Below the pieces are notes generated by a model, which ran no database searches, was not told the origin of the DNA, and was given only the letters and a program-made list of their open reading frames with translations. From positions 1 to 20,104 of IMG/VR virus record IMGVR_UViG_3300032893_000308: a stretch of 20,104 nt of DNA; one strand, written 5' to 3'. This document shows positions 7,000-20,104 of the stretch, one piece after another. The position numbers and the translations under genes are program-made. Source of the DNA: a virus. Each line of letters begins with the position of its first letter. The stretch's first letter is position 1.

Positions 7000-7752
7000 G
7001 TGACCGAACCTAACAAGCCTGATCTTCCCTCGTTTATCCCTGTCGAGATTCAGTCAGCGCGCGCCCAGGCTGAGGCTAGGAAGTTCGAAGCTGAGGCGGA
7101 GAAGGCACTTGCTGAGGCTGAGGCAGCCCGCGCAGACAAGCATAAGCAGGAGGTTGAGATCGAGTTCGGCCTGCTCCAGACCGAGCAGGAGAAGATCCGC
7201 TTGGAGCGTGAGAGGTACGCTCGGAGTAAGGAGCTTGCGTCAAACGAGTTTCATCACCTCTACCTTTACACCGATGAGGTAAACAGTAAGTCGGTGAACG
7301 CGTGTATGAGCCAGCTTGCGGACTGGAACCGTCTTAGCCCGGGGTGCGACATCGAGATCCAGTTCACGTCTCCCGGAGGGTCGATTATCAGCGGCATGGC
7401 TCTTTACGACTTCATTCAGCAGATCCGTGATAGCGGTCATAGAGTCATAACCTCTACCATCGGATACGCAGCTTCCATGGCCGGAATTCTTCTTCAGGCC
7501 GGTGACGATCGCGTGATGGGTAAGGAGGCCTGGGTACTTATTCATCAGGCTAGCTTCGGCGCGGTCGGCTCGTTCGGGGACGTTGAGGATACCTACGAGT
7601 GGGTCAAGAGAATCCAGGGCAGGATCGTTGACATCTTCGCCACGCGCTCCAACCTCTCCAAGAGGGAGATCGAGAAAAACTGGGCACGTAAAGACTGGTG
7701 GCTCGACTCCGACGAGTGCCTTAAGTACGGTCTTGTAGATAAGGTGCGCTAG
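7000..7752 (+). CDS. ClpP-like serine protease with N-terminal coiled coil
   Basis: Predicted serine peptidase of the ClpP family, 250 residues, with a GTG start 4 bases behind AAGGAGG. The catalytic triad is in place: S159 in GYAASMAG, H182 in LIHQ, and D232 in ARKDWWLDSDE, which aligns with the Asp of RDRFLSAPE in E. coli ClpP. The SPGG substrate-binding segment is at 124-127, and YGLVDKV closes the domain. What is odd is residues 16-82, a long Ala/Glu/Lys/Arg-rich helix with heptad character (EAEAEKALAEAEAARAD) that ordinary ClpP lacks. It may oligomerise or recruit substrate. Phage ClpP-fold enzymes are often prohead proteases in the structural module; this one sits among recombination genes. 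Family firm, role open. Confidence 0.9.
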   Translation: MTEPNKPDLPSFIPVEIQSARAQAEARKFEAEAEKALAEAEAARADKHKQEVEIEFGLLQTEQEKIRLERERYARSKELASNEFHHLYLYTDEVNSKSVNACMSQLADWNRLSPGCDIEIQFTSPGGSIISGMALYDFIQQIRDSGHRVITSTIGYAASMAGILLQAGDDRVMGKEAWVLIHQASFGAVGSFGDVEDTYEWVKRIQGRIVDIFATRSNLSKREIEKNWARKDWWLDSDECLKYGLVDKVR

Positions 7753-12872: not shown

Positions 12873-13868
12873 ATGCCAGACGAGGCACGACTTAACGAGT
12901 TCGGCACCTTCTGTCTACTGAAGAAAGGGGTGAACGGCCCAGACGTGCATATGAAGGCAGCGGGCGCAGGAACAGAAGGAGCCGAGAACCGCGAGTGGAA
13001 GCTGGCGGTGTACAACAACTTCTGTAGTACACCGTCAGCAGCGGTTGTTTGGGCAGAGTGGCTTACACCTGAGGATATTATGGCAGATGCGACCAGCCTT
13101 CAAGATTGGATTGCCTGTAATTGGAAGGGAATTCCGATCAGGCAAAATAGACGCCCGGCACGCTCCGTTCCTAAGTTAACCCAAAGTCTTGTTACACTTG
13201 CAGACTGGATGATGACTGATTATCACAAGCTAGGAGAGATGGACTATGAAGAAGCATGGAAGTCGCTCGACGACGTCTACACCTGGGGACGGTACGTCAA
13301 GATCAAGTTTCTTGAGACAGCTCGACGCTATCTCGGACACGATCATCTCGTTGCACCAAACATTAGAGCTGCTGGTGGATGGAGCCCTCGAAGAGCTCTT
13401 GCCCTACTCTACCCCGAGTACGGAACCCGAATTGCAAACAAGGATCGAAACGATAAGGCAACGCTTTCATTCGTCTACGGAGTTGCTAACGACGTGCGGA
13501 ATTTTGTGTCGGAGAGCTTCTGTCCTGTTAGCAATTATGAATTCGAGGCACTACTCTGCAACTACCGTCAAACGCTTTCCGAAAGGAAAGCCTTCTACGT
13601 CGGCAGAACGATAGACTCTGAGCTAGAATACGACACCAAGGTCAGAAGCTACTGGGGGGAGGATCCCTATCGTGGGCAGTTCGACTTCTTTGAAACACGT
13701 AAGGCCGCATTTCCGGAGCGGTGTCTCGGGGAGATTCAGGGATGGGACGGAGTACGTAAGGACCTGTCCCCTCTACTTCGCGAGAACGGATACGTTTGGT
13801 CAGACGTCCTTTACGACTACCAGGCCAGTAAGGATAACCTGGCTCACCCGGTTAGGTGGGTAGCGTGA
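12873..13868 (+). CDS. Unknown 331-residue protein; tentative ADDT/pyrophosphorylase-like thymidine-hypermodification family
   Basis: Begins at ATG 12873 behind AGAAAGG. I cannot assign it firmly. The sequence is predicted helical and carries blocks that resemble phage base-hypermodification transferases of the alpha-glutamyl/putrescinyl thymine pyrophosphorylase (ADDT) group: VYNNFC at 46-51, NWKGIPIRQNRRPARS at 83-98, VYTWGRYVKIKFLE (135-148), GGWSPRRALALLYPE (168-182) and FEALLCNYRQTL (224-235). That resemblance is from memory and imperfect: the usual N-terminal PWTxDPIL motif is not present. The context is supportive, with a kinase like 5-hydroxymethyl-dU DNA kinases 550 bp downstream and a C5-methyltransferase upstream. 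The alternative is an unrelated helical protein. The gene itself is certain: long, well-phased codon use, good start. Confidence 0.5.
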   Translation: MPDEARLNEFGTFCLLKKGVNGPDVHMKAAGAGTEGAENREWKLAVYNNFCSTPSAAVVWAEWLTPEDIMADATSLQDWIACNWKGIPIRQNRRPARSVPKLTQSLVTLADWMMTDYHKLGEMDYEEAWKSLDDVYTWGRYVKIKFLETARRYLGHDHLVAPNIRAAGGWSPRRALALLYPEYGTRIANKDRNDKATLSFVYGVANDVRNFVSESFCPVSNYEFEALLCNYRQTLSERKAFYVGRTIDSELEYDTKVRSYWGEDPYRGQFDFFETRKAAFPERCLGEIQGWDGVRKDLSPLLRENGYVWSDVLYDYQASKDNLAHPVRWVA

Positions 13869-13996
13869 GAGACTTTTGGGACGATCTTTGTGGGATGGAG
13901 TGGTGGGAGTACGGTCTTATCGTTCTGATGCTCATTGCGTACTTTACGTTTTGTGTCTGTTTGGCATGGGCCGTTAGCGGAAGATTTCCTCTATGA
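13865..13996 (+). CDS. Tiny single-pass membrane protein
   Basis: A 43-residue gene in the space between the 331-residue protein and the phosphatase. It overlaps each neighbour by 4 bp (GTGA at its start, ATGA at its end), a coupling pattern typical of this genome. GTG 13865 follows AGGTGGG. Residues 17-37 (GLIVLMLIAYFTFCVCLAWA) form one transmembrane helix after an acidic, Trp-rich N-terminus (MRDFWDDLCGMEWWEY). Function unknown. The overlaps on both sides make it more believable than its size suggests. Confidence 0.6.
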   Translation: MRDFWDDLCGMEWWEYGLIVLMLIAYFTFCVCLAWAVSGRFPL

Positions 13997-14430
13997 ACGT
14001 TTGGAAGATTCGAGATAACCTCTTCATCAGAGGCATGTTCAGCGACAGGCCCTATAAGCTCCAAGAACTGAAGGATCTTGAGATCGGTACCGTGATCTGT
14101 ATGCTGCGGAAGACCGATCCCGATCTCAAGAACCTGGATTGGCTGACGTACGCCAACTTCCCGCTGCCGGATACAGACTACGTCAAGGAGGAGGCTCTTT
14201 GGGGAGCAGCCTTCCTAGCGAGCCGTGAGCTTTACGCTGGAAAGAAAGTCCTGATACACTGTATCGCTGCGCGCGACAGGGCTCCGACAACGGCGGCTGT
14301 CACGCTTTGCCTAAAGGAAGGGATCTCAGGAGTGGACGCTATGGCCCAGGTAAAGAGAATCAAACCGACAACCTTCCACAACAAGGCCTTCGTGGCGTAC
14401 CTGAGAGGAATCCAGGCCAATGCTGATTAA
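13993..14430 (+). CDS. Cys-based (dual-specificity/tyrosine-type) phosphatase
   Basis: A 145-residue protein with the HCx5R signature of cysteine-dependent phosphatases: H89-C90-x5-R96 in LIHCIAARDRAPTT. C90 would be the nucleophile and R96 the phosphate binder. The upstream loop LPDTD (58-62) is well placed to supply the general-acid Asp, and the N-terminal WKIRDNLFIRG matches the DSP entry strand. The P-loop lacks the usual Gly (CxxGxxR), so substrate and activity need testing. It could act on phosphoproteins, nucleotides or, since some DSPs use them, inositol phosphates. It overlaps the kinase gene by 11 bp, pairing a phosphatase with a kinase in one transcript. Confidence 0.75.
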   Translation: MNVWKIRDNLFIRGMFSDRPYKLQELKDLEIGTVICMLRKTDPDLKNLDWLTYANFPLPDTDYVKEEALWGAAFLASRELYAGKKVLIHCIAARDRAPTTAAVTLCLKEGISGVDAMAQVKRIKPTTFHNKAFVAYLRGIQANAD

Positions 14431-15412
14431 CCTACGCGGATCGCATGGGTCCGGTAAGACATACGTCTCTCATCGTCTTATCGACGAGCATGCACACGAG
14501 GCTTTGATCGAGCCGGAGTACGTGCAGGAGAAGCACTTCATTAAGCCTAACTGTCACGCTATCGAGGGCGGTCTTTACATTCTCGGGCGTTGGAAGTCGG
14601 GCATGGACGGCATCTTCCCACAGACAATCGTCGAGGAGATGATCGAGTACTGGGCTCCTAAGGGACACGTGATCTGGGAGAACGTCATGGTTTCAGCGAA
14701 CGTCGGACGCTGGGCCGTTCTCTCGCATAAGCTTGAGCCGATCAACCACAACATCTGGGCCTTCTTCGACACGCCTCTTGAACTTTCGATTGAGCGCGTG
14801 ATGTCACGTCGGCAGGAATCCGCTGAGCGAGGTTTCAACCATCGTCAGGAGGATAGTGAGGTCAAACTCGACGTACTTGCCCAGCATTGGCGCCGGTGCC
14901 GACGCGCAGCCGTGCGTGCCTACCAGGACGGAATCGACGTCCGGTGGATCGACCACACCTGTGCGTACGAGCAGGTGTATGACCTGCTTGCAACAGAGGG
15001 AGATTGGAATCCACCGGGAGGCGGAAGTCTTTACGGCGCTCCAGAGCTCATTCCGTGGCAACCTACGGAGGAGGAGATCGAGTACGTCCTGAAGACTGCT
15101 ATTCTTCCCTGGGAGCCTGAGGATACCGTTACCAAGACGAGCTATGTTTCGGCACCTCGAATGAAGTTCAGCAAGAACCCAGACCAGGAGTTCGGTCTCG
15201 CGGTCAAGCGATGGGGCGCAGGATACGAGGATAGTGAGGTCTTTGGGCATACCGTCAAGAGCTGGGAGGGCTACCACAACCCTCAGAAGATTATCCTCCC
15301 ACCTGCGCCCAAGACGGTTACGATGATAACGACACGTAGAATAACACAAGTGGAGACTGAGGAACTGATCGGACTTGGCGGAGAGGTTCAGGTGTGGCCG
15401 AGTGCCTCATAA
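14420..15412 (+). CDS. P-loop kinase resembling 5-hydroxymethyl-dU DNA kinase
   Basis: A 330-residue protein whose N-terminal 195 residues form a P-loop kinase. Walker A is GSHGSGKT at 7-14, preceded by MLINLR, the same opening (MLIN-R-G) seen in phage 5-hydroxymethyl-dU DNA kinases. Further shared features, from memory, are YILGRWKSGMDGI (53-65) and HVIWENVMVSANVGRW (83-98), which match their LGxYxxxGGxD and vlfEGxxvS segments. The second half (200-330) has no recognised domain. If the homology holds, the enzyme phosphorylates a hydroxymethylated pyrimidine in DNA, making it reactive for further decoration. An alternative is a general nucleotide or metabolite kinase. The family match rests on a few motifs. 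Confidence 0.7.
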   Translation: MLINLRGSHGSGKTYVSHRLIDEHAHEALIEPEYVQEKHFIKPNCHAIEGGLYILGRWKSGMDGIFPQTIVEEMIEYWAPKGHVIWENVMVSANVGRWAVLSHKLEPINHNIWAFFDTPLELSIERVMSRRQESAERGFNHRQEDSEVKLDVLAQHWRRCRRAAVRAYQDGIDVRWIDHTCAYEQVYDLLATEGDWNPPGGGSLYGAPELIPWQPTEEEIEYVLKTAILPWEPEDTVTKTSYVSAPRMKFSKNPDQEFGLAVKRWGAGYEDSEVFGHTVKSWEGYHNPQKIILPPAPKTVTMITTRRITQVETEELIGLGGEVQVWPSAS

Positions 15413-16781: not shown

Positions 16782-17225
16782 ATGGAGCATGTGGTTTTCC
16801 TTAAGTGGGCTCTCCTTAACGCGCTAACCGCGGTCTTCTTTGTCGCTGCCGGGTACCTCTATCACTCGCACATTCACGGCGCGGCTCTTGTTGCCGTCCC
16901 GATGCTCCTCACACTCTTTACGTTCATGACGGCATACGGAGGCTGGCTTTGTTGGAAGACGGATCTTGCGACTAAGACCTACCTAAAGGATAGGATCCGA
17001 CACGATCTTGATTGGCTTAACTACTTTGCGTATACCCTGCAGGTAGGAGGTATCATGTGTACCCTCATCGGGTTCTACCTGATCCTAGGTCACGGCATCG
17101 AAGCGAACTTCCAGCAAAAGCTAGCAGGTGGTAGCGTGGCGTTGCTAGGTTCATTCGTGGGCGTTCTCTGTTCGCTTGTTCTACTTACCGAGCAGAGAGT
17201 CATCGAGCACGAGCTAGGAGGATAA
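16782..17225 (+). CDS. ExbB/MotA/TolQ-like membrane channel subunit
   Basis: A 147-residue membrane protein with four predicted helices at 9-27, 34-57, 83-103 and 114-135. The last two, LQVGGIMCTLIGFYLILG and KLAGGSVALLGSFVGVLCSL, match the two core helices of MotA/TolQ/ExbB channels (Gly-rich GxxGTxxG-type helix, then LAxGxxxAL...GxxxxL). These subunits form a ring that uses proton or ion flow to drive a partner. It is shorter than ExbB and lacks a large cytoplasmic domain. The next gene encodes an ExbD-like partner, which strengthens the call. It may move ions, move a partner protein, or act as a membrane-damaging or exclusion protein. Family likely, function unproven. Confidence 0.72.
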   Translation: MEHVVFLKWALLNALTAVFFVAAGYLYHSHIHGAALVAVPMLLTLFTFMTAYGGWLCWKTDLATKTYLKDRIRHDLDWLNYFAYTLQVGGIMCTLIGFYLILGHGIEANFQQKLAGGSVALLGSFVGVLCSLVLLTEQRVIEHELGG

Positions 17226-17227
17226 CC

Positions 17228-17839
17228 TTGCACGGACAGCGACCTATGGTCGTGGTCGTGGACATGCTCTGTTGTCTTCTGATCGTCTTTCTGCTCCTGG
17301 CTGCGCCGCCAGCAAAGCCTCCGAATCCTCCGACATACGGACAGTACGCCGTAACGATTCAGTGGCGAAGCGGAAGTAACAACGATGTCGATCTCTACGT
17401 AAGAGACCCCGTGGGAAACGTCTGCTTCTTCGCGGCTGAGAACATCGGACTTATGCAGCTTGAGGGAGACGATCTCGGGACCAAGACGTCAGGAACCACG
17501 ACACTCTCGGACGGAAGAAAGATCGTTGTGCCGAGAAACTCCGAACGTACGGTCATTCGGGGTATCATCGCCGGAGAGTACACCGTGAATGTTCACATGT
17601 ACCTCCGAAATGACAAGTTGCCTCCTGATACGATTGTTCTCGTCCAGCTCTGGACCCTTCGAGGGAATGATCATGTGATTCACCAGCAGTACATTACACT
17701 GCACGGCACCGGTGACGAGCAGACGGCTTTTCGCTTTAGGATGAATGAGGTAGGAAACGTGACTTCCTACAATCGACTTCCTGCTCACTTCACGGGGTAC
17801 AGCAGCATTCCTACCGTATTCTCAGGATCACCCGGTTGA
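17228..17839 (+). CDS. ExbD/TolR-like protein with beta-rich C-terminal domain
   Basis: A 203-residue protein with TTG start. Its single N-terminal helix (residues 8-26) carries D12 in VVVVDMLCCLLIVFLLL, the location of the essential Asp in the ExbD/TolR/MotB helix that threads the ExbB ring. After a Pro-rich linker (27-38), residues 40-175 form a beta-rich domain with NDVDLYVRDPVGNVCF and AGEYTVNVHMYL, resembling DUF2135- or pre-peptidase-type beta-sandwich domains that face outside the membrane. It has no OmpA-like peptidoglycan-binding domain, so it is not a standard MotB or ZorB. Placed directly after the ExbB-like gene. Helix and Asp clear; family moderately sure. Confidence 0.72.
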   Translation: MHGQRPMVVVVDMLCCLLIVFLLLAAPPAKPPNPPTYGQYAVTIQWRSGSNNDVDLYVRDPVGNVCFFAAENIGLMQLEGDDLGTKTSGTTTLSDGRKIVVPRNSERTVIRGIIAGEYTVNVHMYLRNDKLPPDTIVLVQLWTLRGNDHVIHQQYITLHGTGDEQTAFRFRMNEVGNVTSYNRLPAHFTGYSSIPTVFSGSPG

Positions 17840-18360
17840 TCATCTTCATCGGTTTTGTGCTTCTCTTTACCGTCCTTCTCTGGGGACTTATCTACGCTCG
17901 AGGACCTTGGTGGTCCAAGCTAGCTGTTACCGTAGTCACGCTCTCCTTTACGTTTCTAGTTTGGGGTGCTCTCGGTTCATACCGGGGTTGGCCAGCACCC
18001 CTAAGCCTTCCGTCTAACGCCGTTTTCATCTCCTGTGAGGTTAACGAGCCGGATGCCGTTAGCAACGATCCGGGTGCAATTTACCTATGGCTCATTCCGG
18101 CAAAGCGCCAGCAGGATCTGGTTGGGTACCACTCCAGTAGGTATGAACCTAGGGCCTATAAGGAGCACTATTCAGAGGAGCTCGCATCAGCTTGTGATCA
18201 GGCATCTAAGATGTCGAAGACGAGTCCTACGGGAGTTGGTTTGCATACCGTCCGTTCTTCGGCTAAAATTCACGGAGTAACACGAGGACAATCGTCAGCG
18301 GGTGAGTACCATCCTTACTTGCTTCCTCCTCCCGCAATTCCTAGAAAAGGAGCACGGTGA
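17836..18360 (+). CDS. Two-helix membrane protein with soluble C-terminal domain, unknown function
   Basis: A 174-residue protein that starts at TTG 17836, overlapping the previous stop by 4 bp. Two transmembrane helices are predicted at 2-21 and 27-48. Residues 60-130 form a polar domain with C67 and C120, and the C-terminus ends in a proline-rich stretch (PYLLPPPAIPRK). No family recognised. The gene is tightly coupled to the ExbBD-like genes and to the next gene (4 bp overlap), which suggests a shared membrane complex. Confidence 0.65.
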   Translation: MIIFIGFVLLFTVLLWGLIYARGPWWSKLAVTVVTLSFTFLVWGALGSYRGWPAPLSLPSNAVFISCEVNEPDAVSNDPGAIYLWLIPAKRQQDLVGYHSSRYEPRAYKEHYSEELASACDQASKMSKTSPTGVGLHTVRSSAKIHGVTRGQSSAGEYHPYLLPPPAIPRKGAR

Positions 18361-18749
18361 ACAAGGCCACTGTAACCGTTATCATCGCAGCAGTTCTTTC
18401 ACTTGCGTTTGCTGCGTGGGTTGTTAGTAACGCAACGTCAAGTAAGAAGAAGAATGCCGCCCCTGCGGTCGCACATACTAGTCAGCCTACGCCAGCAGTT
18501 GCAGGCGTAACCTTTGCGCAGGTGTTCAACCGTACGCCACCTACCACGCTCCAGGTTACGTCGATCGGTAAGTGTGCTCAGAATCCTAGCGACGCTACGG
18601 TCTATGCCTGTGACTTCGGCGTGACCAAGGTAGCGACCGGCCAGAAAATCTGTGCGGCCGTTTCATTTAGCCTGAACGCTACGACCAACAAGATAAAGTA
18701 TCTTCAGAGTGTTCGGGTTGCCGACAAGTACTGCACTACAACCGCGTGA
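18357..18749 (+). CDS. Membrane-anchored, Cys-containing extracytoplasmic protein
   Basis: A 130-residue protein with GTG start after AAAGGAG. An N-terminal hydrophobic helix (5-24, VTVIIAAVLSLAFAAWVVS) acts as a signal anchor; a Pro/Ala-rich linker (34-48) follows, then a domain with four cysteines (C73, C85, C99, C126) that could make two disulfides outside the cytoplasm. No lipobox is visible. It overlaps the next gene by 4 bp. Probably an exported partner of the membrane complex; function unknown. Confidence 0.65.
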   Translation: MNKATVTVIIAAVLSLAFAAWVVSNATSSKKKNAAPAVAHTSQPTPAVAGVTFAQVFNRTPPTTLQVTSIGKCAQNPSDATVYACDFGVTKVATGQKICAAVSFSLNATTNKIKYLQSVRVADKYCTTTA

Positions 18750-20104
18750 ATGAACGTAAAAGGTTAGGGCTTCTTGCAACCGGGCTTGCACTTCTTTCGG
18801 CGCCGGTCGTTATCTTTTGGGAGCGTAGCAACGGGCATGGCCTAGCATTTTCGGTTGCGGTTGCGCTTTTCGCCGTGGCTGCCTTTAGAGGACTGATGGA
18901 TCAGTTCTTTAAGCATACAATGAAGGCACCTAGCCTCTTTGGTGTGAGCGATCCGCTAGCTCGAGAGGATGACGCACTTTACCGCCGGCGCATCCACTTC
19001 TGGGGAGTTTTCTTTAAGCTAACCCCACTGTGGCTTTTTCTAGCGTGGCGCGGACCGCACATCATGGGGTACCTGACAAATCCTCAGTACCTTCAGACGC
19101 TGATCATGCTCCCGATTTTCTTCCTGTTCAACTTCCTCATCTTCATGGGGCCTATGGTTGCAATGGGAATCTCACAGATTAGAGGGTTTGAGCCAGGAGA
19201 TGCGAGCTGGGGTGTAAAGCTCGAAGACGTGCGTGGTCAGGCTGAGGCCAAGGATGAGATCAACAAGATCATTACGCTCTGGCAGTCGGGCGAGAAGTTT
19301 GTAGAAGCGGGAGGGAAACGAGAGAGAGGAATCCTCTTTCTCGGCCCTCCCGGTACCGGAAAGACGATGCTAGCCAAAGCAATTGCGACTGGATTCAACT
19401 GCCCAATCGTGACGATTCCTGGCTCGGGTTTTGCCCAAATGTTTATGGGTCTTGATATTGTGATCGTGCGCTTTATGGCGCGTAAGGCGAAAAAGCTAGC
19501 CTCCAAGTGGGGCGGCCAGTGTATCGTCTTCATCGACGAGATCGACGCGGTCGGGATGAGGCGTTCCGCGCTTCTTCCAGGAGGACGCAAGCAAGACCAG
19601 ATTGCAGGCGGGATGGGAATGATGGGAATGGGTGGCATGGCGATCAACCAGCTTCTCGTCGTCATGGATGGCATCGACTCTCCGGGCTTTTTTAAGCGGT
19701 GGACCGTCTCGAAGTTCAACACGCTTCTCGACGCCTCATACCTCGTGCCTCGCCGGGTCAAGGGTCACAGCCTTAGGATGCGTCCCGCAAAGCCCTCAGG
19801 GAATCAGATTTACTTCATCGGCGCAACGAACGTGGCGCTCGAGGCACTCGATCCCGCCCTTACGCGCGCTGGGCGCATGGGACGCCACATCTACTTCCGT
19901 GAACCGACCAAGAAGGACCGCATCGACGTCTTTGACCTCTACCTAGGAAAGGTGAAGCATGATCCTGAAATGGATGCGCCGGAGGCGAGAGAGGAAATTG
20001 CTCGCGTCACGTCTGGATACAGCCCTGCGGACATCGAGCAAGTCTGCTCTCTTGCTCTCACCTATGCGCATCACTCCAATCGAGAGGCCTTTACTCGTGA
20101 TGAT
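18746..20104 (+). CDS. FtsH-like membrane AAA+ ATPase; 3' end outside window
   Basis: Runs off the window after 453 codons. Start GTG 18746 overlaps the previous stop by 4 bp. Four predicted transmembrane helices lie in residues 8-140 (about 8-24, 34-50, 86-101, 117-140), where FtsH usually has two. Then a classic AAA+ domain: VKLEDVRGQAEAKDEI (157-172), Walker A GPPGTGKT (200-207), pore loop FAQMFMG (229-235), Walker B IVFIDEID (260-267), ATN at 360-362, and arginine-finger stretch ALTRAGRMGR (371-380). It resembles FtsH, but a Gly/Met-rich segment GGMGMMGMGGM (288-298) and about 42 residues (312-354) lie between Walker B and the second region of homology. Whether an M41 zinc protease domain follows is unknown. 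Confidence 0.9.
   Translation, partial: MNERKRLGLLATGLALLSAPVVIFWERSNGHGLAFSVAVALFAVAAFRGLMDQFFKHTMKAPSLFGVSDPLAREDDALYRRRIHFWGVFFKLTPLWLFLAWRGPHIMGYLTNPQYLQTLIMLPIFFLFNFLIFMGPMVAMGISQIRGFEPGDASWGVKLEDVRGQAEAKDEINKIITLWQSGEKFVEAGGKRERGILFLGPPGTGKTMLAKAIATGFNCPIVTIPGSGFAQMFMGLDIVIVRFMARKAKKLASKWGGQCIVFIDEIDAVGMRRSALLPGGRKQDQIAGGMGMMGMGGMAINQLLVVMDGIDSPGFFKRWTVSKFNTLLDASYLVPRRVKGHSLRMRPAKPSGNQIYFIGATNVALEALDPALTRAGRMGRHIYFREPTKKDRIDVFDLYLGKVKHDPEMDAPEAREEIARVTSGYSPADIEQVCSLALTYAHHSNREAFTRDD

Follow-up and report, generated by a model that had tools for sequence, protein, structure and literature searches.

The locus described here raises the question of why a virus should carry genes resembling those of an ion-driven motor of the bacterial envelope. 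To our knowledge, the known ion-driven motors of the pentamer-dimer (5:2) class are bacterial, and one such motor, Zorya, fights phages. The genes lie at the end of a 20,104-base IMG/VR virus fragment (record IMGVR_UViG_3300032893_000308), to which we refer in its whole length as the window. A preliminary description of this DNA had recognized there a cassette of five consecutive membrane-protein genes, the first two encoding an ExbB/MotA-like and ExbD-like pair and the last an FtsH-like AAA+ ATPase, which was regarded as the partner of the motor. All five open reading frames were recovered where that description had placed them, on the + strand, with a spacing between successive genes of 2, -4, -4 and -4 bases. 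As set out below, the first three genes, designated A, B and C, form a conserved unit, and they probably encode an ion-driven inner-membrane motor of the 5:2 class that acts on the envelope. The motor-type identity of this module is well supported, while its role in infection is something that we infer.

A DNA search for close relatives, and single-protein queries with A or the AAA+ protein, returned no close relatives. The family was opened up through B, which as a query led to three contigs, and then through its profile. Searching with B by tblastn reached Rhizobium phages, where the product is called just 'hypothetical', and a seven-row alignment of B matched 251 stretches in IMG/VR, 200 of which were confirmed, on contigs of up to 527 kb. 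We kept 80 of the confirmed stretches for study; the module occurs in at least 200 stretches altogether. With the window and its sister contig (L002 in our numbering of loci) left out of the profiles of A, B and C, the three proteins were still recovered, as the sole good matches within the window (E = 7.4e-10, 7.7e-48 and 1.5e-36, respectively). In 85 of the 88 inspected loci gene A precedes B, the remaining three contigs ending just ahead of B, and C lies downstream of B in all 88 (L075 has a 1,030-base insert); 4-base overlaps between the module genes are frequent. Beyond A, B and C, the commonest neighbour family reaches 15 of the 67 non-redundant phage loci. So constant an order cannot credibly have arisen by chance, and the conserved unit is A-B-C. 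The concern that homologues might occur singly and unlinked in other genomes was not borne out, as the three genes were linked wherever sequence was available.

Among 50,697 phage records, matches were found only in Rhizobium and Sinorhizobium phages. The isolated phages with the module represent no fewer than three kinds (about 59-69 kb, 153-159 kb and 171 kb) and include phage 16-3, and in the Rhizobium phage isolates all three genes are annotated as hypothetical only; in Rhizobium phage vB_RleM_P10VF they are P10VF_191 to P10VF_193. The AP-16-3 paper on phage 16-3 makes no mention of them, ExbB appears in the telomere-phage paper only as a host import factor, and the searched passages of reviews and phylogenies of the motor class (PMC9389320, PMC12505986 and PMC12204202) contain no phage-borne member. 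In the literature searched, which consisted of open-licence papers, we found no prior description of the module, in agreement with the earlier remark that it is not a standard phage module. A phage-borne motor of the 5:2 class, present in environmental stretches on this scale as well as in cultured Rhizobium phages, is thus not described in the papers searched.

A profile built from 60 A proteins and searched against the PDB matched MotA best (8gqy, E = 3.9e-6), with TolQ (8odt, 5.2e-6), PomA, ExbB and ZorA also among the matches. Several A relatives scored above the cut-off of PF01618 (MotA_ExbB), among them L019 (1.6e-8), L003 (8e-7) and L072 (3.8e-5), and the named model best matched by the relatives was ZorA, below cut-off (NCBIfam ZorA_4, 1.1e-5; PADLOC ZorA, 3.5e-6). 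As in members of PF01618, the homology runs across the last two helices with their GxxGTxxG and A...TxxG motifs, both of which are near-invariant in the A family. Four hydrophobic segments are present in 55 of the 60 proteins; the N-terminus is positively charged, the loop between segments 2 and 3 has about 31 residues, and the tail after the last segment is short, about 12 residues in the 147-residue window protein. Judged from its sequence, A is a true homologue of MotA, TolQ, ExbB and ZorA, with a MotA-type topology that lacks the cytoplasmic domain.

Proteins of the PF01618 family work with a partner that has a single Asp-bearing helix, and B is such a protein: the Asp is located within or at the start of its single helix in all 63 non-redundant phage copies. 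In the model of window B (predicted local distance difference test, pLDDT, 87.3) this helix spans residues 7-25, with D12 near its start as in ExbD. The proposed ExbB/MotA-like and ExbD-like pair with D12 is therefore upheld, on the A profile matches and the conserved Asp. Residues 40-182, about 145 in all, were modelled as an all-beta sandwich, in which W46, D53, D55, D81, D82, G84 and E106 are invariant across the 63 B sequences; in view of the conserved acidic residues, a metal site is plausible. In structural alignments of the model, TerD structures ranked at the top (Z of 11.1, 10.1, 9.7 and 8.7, the next rows having 6.3), and structures 9a6r and 7jtk likewise gave a Z of 9.7. Foldseek alone gave no significant match of the model to the PDB, and a profile comparison of B with five TerD-type sequences from one plasmid scored no better than shuffled controls. 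Since sequence profiles give no support for kinship, we restrict the claim to resemblance of fold: as modelled, the B domain has a TerD-like fold. This domain takes the place of the peptidoglycan-binding domain of ZorB, the absence of which had been noticed from the start; Pfam gives no OmpA-like match in B, and the all-beta model has no OmpA-like helices. Scans of Pfam, PHROGs and NCBIfam assigned B to no family. In L072 (1986-2711) the B domain weakly resembles a portion of PHROG 1735 (E = 0.0028; 673 residues, function unknown), so the domain may also occur in larger phage proteins.

Two helices are predicted in 61 of the 63 C proteins. The loop between them averages 1.77 Lys or Arg residues and 0.10 Asp or Glu residues, and the N-terminus and the side beyond helix 2 are net negative; by the positive-inside rule, the C domain is predicted to face the periplasm. 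The model of C (pLDDT 83.4) resembles nothing in fold comparisons beyond weak OB-like matches (Z about 5), and scans of Pfam, PHROGs and NCBIfam yielded no family and no match to TonB or TolA. C is a third subunit with a two-helix hairpin, equally conserved and always linked to the other two.

The same cannot be said of the last two genes, which stand beside the module in 2 of the 67 non-redundant phage loci, the window and L002. The AAA+ protein was accordingly rejected as a core partner of the module, and the core is made up of the motor pair and C instead. What remains of the five-gene membrane cassette is A, B and C as the conserved unit, with genes 4 and 5 as lineage-specific additions. 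The description of gene 5 as an ATP-driven membrane unfoldase fits the protein itself, which matches PF00004 (8.5e-26) and FtsH_fam (3.6e-51) and has an FtsH-type AAA+ module behind membrane segments; the FtsH_fam match stays under the whole-protein cut-off, as a copy cut by the contig end would be expected to do. It runs off the contig at residue 453, and the copy in the sister contig is also cut. The protein shares with FtsH the AAA+ module with its pore loop, Walker motifs and second region of homology, and the preceding membrane segments; it differs in having four rather than two hydrophobic segments, and a peptidase half, which in FtsH is an M41 zinc peptidase domain with HEXXH, would lie past the contig end. 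This FtsH-like protein is, however, outside the conserved A-B-C module.

A module confined to phages was also rejected, as genome searches found bacterial copies, mainly in Alphaproteobacteria. A scan of bacterial genomes gave 11 matches, several of them with neighbours of clearly chromosomal type (suf operon, nadA), and the module was present in 56 of 385 sampled genomes of the class of the marine Alphaproteobacteria, whereas two other phyla had it in 1 of 380 and 1 of 297 genomes. One copy from a bacterial genome (L134) adjoins a phage head-tail connector gene. The tree of B cannot be explained with fewer than five switches from phage to genome or back. In it the window and L002 cluster with candidate-phylum genomes (97%); the module is carried by such genomes in L093, L098 and L103, which include Harrisonbacteria and Yanofskybacteria, and the grouping is a possible hint to the host of the phage. 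In six of the alphaproteobacterial loci inspected (L116, L117, L118, L120, L122 and L124), C is followed by a gene of 230-262 codons with a lipoprotein signal. The L122 copy, when tested, belonged to no Pfam family, and it is followed by an AI-2E-type permease gene.

In the mechanism that we propose, five A subunits would surround two B helices, the ion path would run through B residue D12 and a Thr/Ser ring in A (T94, S124), and ion flow would make A rotate against B. On the periplasmic side, the B and C domains would grip or move some envelope partner, with C in the place held by TonB or TolA in the Ton and Tol systems. As for neighbours, the module in the isolates adjoins genes for DNA polymerase, endonuclease and ThyX, or for gyrase, a late sigma factor and a clamp, and its location next to replication or nucleotide genes, in the window as well as in several isolates, suggests that it is expressed early or in the middle phase. 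Within 2.5 kb of the phage module there are 19 protease genes, compared with 4 in the zone of 2.5-6 kb, the two zones covering similar amounts of DNA. The proteases are of three kinds, trypsin-like, FtsH-like and ClpP-like, and some of the ClpP-like ones have signal or lipoprotein leaders. Of the roles suggested earlier (superinfection exclusion, envelope remodelling and proteolysis), the last receives weak support from this clustering. Lipoprotein genes are not enriched near the phage module (7 of 441 genes near, 13 of 468 far). With lower confidence, then, the module may be made early alongside the replication genes and act on host envelope proteins during infection, proteases joining in some lineages, here the membrane FtsH-like AAA+ unfoldase. 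Its most likely uses would be the exclusion of other phages and envelope upkeep in the infected cell. Separately, the close neighbours of the phage module in L074 (4635-5321), L078 (4048-5514) and L021 (3049-4059) were seen to encode ClpP-like or trypsin-like proteases whose leaders are of the lipoprotein or secretion type.

Several observations weigh against this picture. Window A alone has no match in Pfam and has diverged within its motifs, where C93 replaces Gly and S124 replaces Thr, T94 being retained; the divergent protein still joins the family through the leave-out profile. Three chromosomal B relatives (L125-L127) have no intramembrane Asp, the A motifs being retained, so some homologues of the module may not be motors. 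Terminase genes are found near the module in some phages, and early expression is thus not universal. The clustering of proteases derives from about seven lineages of related phages, which makes it a lead rather than proof, and ClpP-type proteins of phages may be head-maturation proteases.

Other roles for the same genes have to be considered. In cells that are large or have been infected for long, the motor could join the inner membrane to the outer, either as a substitute for TolQRA or in support of it. The A profile has TolQ among its best matches, the lipoprotein gene behind C in six inspected cellular copies recalls Pal in the Tol system, and 7 of the 22 module-bearing bacteria have no detectable TolB. 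The other 15 do have TolB, so the module is not simply a replacement for Tol-Pal in bacteria; moreover, C is unlike TolA, with two helices and no long helical rod, and the phages have no conserved Pal-like gene. We consider such upkeep of the Tol type unlikely. That ZorA is the best named model for the A relatives, and that the ion residues are the same, would also fit a Zorya-like sensor in which the motor detects envelope damage from a second, competing phage and triggers an effector. In Zorya, however, both the ZorA tail, which is required for defence, and peptidoglycan binding are needed (PMC11890865). A has 147 residues and ends soon after its fourth helix, B has no peptidoglycan-binding domain, and no effector like ZorC, ZorD or ZorE is conserved next to the module across the loci compared; a PADLOC scan limited to A, B, C and the AAA+ protein of the window identified none of them as a Zor effector. 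A sensor of this kind therefore seems distinctly improbable.

Of all parts of the machine the ion path has the best support, and it might by itself serve as a gated leak for setting the membrane potential, as in lysis timing or host takeover. We give this little credence, as it leaves the large conserved domain of B and the whole of C unexplained, and the module is located apart from lysis genes in the window and most inspected isolates. Least credible of all is a decoy that poisons host ZorAB, TolQR or ExbBD by mixing of subunits: A and B do resemble trimmed ZorA and ZorB, but a decoy would not need the ion-carrier Asp, which is kept in all 63 phage copies, C is always present, and bacterial chromosomes also inherit the module. 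An envelope-acting motor of the 5:2 class remains the reading that we prefer, and it would give phages a possible means for mechanical work on the envelope. If it is true, a virus spends the ion gradient of the cell on such work in its host. We put at slightly better than even the broader proposition that these proteins are an unnamed three-subunit ion-motor family, in which a TerD-like domain bears force and one subunit is a hairpin, and that this family occurs in many unrelated phages, has moved between phages and bacteria, and converts the ion gradient into mechanical work on the envelope.

The main genes of the window are all on the + strand, and no end repeats were found across its 20,104 bases. 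Ahead of the cassette are genes for a DNA polymerase (PHROG 17, E = 1.8e-68), an SNF2 helicase, a PD-(D/E)XK nuclease, a ClpP-like protease and a cytosine methylase, followed by genes for myo-inositol-1-phosphate synthase and an exonuclease subunit of DNA polymerase. The ClpP-type protease (7000-7752), amid the replication genes, has an extra N-terminal charged stretch of about 85 residues, probably a coiled coil. The region 12873-15412 encodes a protein with a sub-threshold match to an amino acid:DNA transferase (PF18724, 1.7e-4) together with phosphatase-like and P-loop kinase-like proteins, downstream of the myo-inositol-1-phosphate synthase and a HAD hydrolase; it is possibly a cluster for DNA base hypermodification, perhaps involving inositol.

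Table 1. Positions of the cassette genes and their key sites in the window.
Feature	Positions	Strand	Evidence
Gene A, MotA/TolQ/ExbB/ZorA-type channel subunit, 147 residues	16782..17225	+	Leave-out profile, PDB profile matches, topology
A codon T94, equivalent of pore-lining Thr	17061..17063	+	Thr in 60/61
A codon S124, equivalent of second pore Thr	17151..17153	+	Thr in 59/61, Ser in window
AGGAGG ribosome-binding site ahead of gene B	17216..17221	+	Sequence
Gene B, ExbD/ZorB-like single helix and all-beta domain, 203 residues, TTG start	17228..17839	+	Profile, model, fold
B codon D12, predicted intramembrane ion-carrier Asp	17261..17263	+	63/63 phage copies
Gene C, two-helix hairpin with positive loop and predicted periplasmic domain, 174 residues	17836..18360	+	Profile, charge, model
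Gene 4, one N-terminal helix and four-Cys domain, 130 residues	18357..18749	+	Lineage-specific: window and L002
Gene 5, four N-terminal hydrophobic segments and FtsH-family AAA+ module, at least 453 residues	18746..20104	+	FtsH_fam, PF00004
Gene 5 Walker A	19343..19366	+	
Gene 5 pore loop MFMG	19439..19450	+	
Gene 5 Walker B	19526..19540	+	
Gene 5 second region of homology	19850..19876	+	

The comparison with known systems indicates that the module is neither Zorya nor Ton/Tol. With ZorAB it shares the homology of A to ZorA in the channel helices and a B protein with a single helix and intramembrane Asp, while it has no ZorA cytoplasmic tail, includes subunit C and is phage-borne. TolQR-TolA and ExbBD-TonB likewise combine a homologous channel (TolQ being among the best matches) and an Asp helix with a third membrane subunit. 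Their channel protein, however, has three helices and a long cytoplasmic part, whereas A is a four-helix protein with a short loop; the periplasmic domain of ExbD and TolR is small and alpha/beta, that of B an all-beta sandwich; and TonB and TolA are single-helix transducers, in contrast to C with its two helices and no rod. TerD, a calcium-binding protein of tellurite resistance, has the overall fold of the B domain (Z of 8.7-11.1), but the latter follows a membrane helix and is predicted to lie outside the cytoplasm. The MotAB and PomAB stators have the four-helix topology of A, whose best PDB match is MotA; the module differs from them in lacking the torque-generating cytoplasmic domain, the OmpA-like domain and any flagellar link. 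Set beside these systems, the module would extend the motor family by a branch that has three subunits and a periplasmic domain of a new kind.

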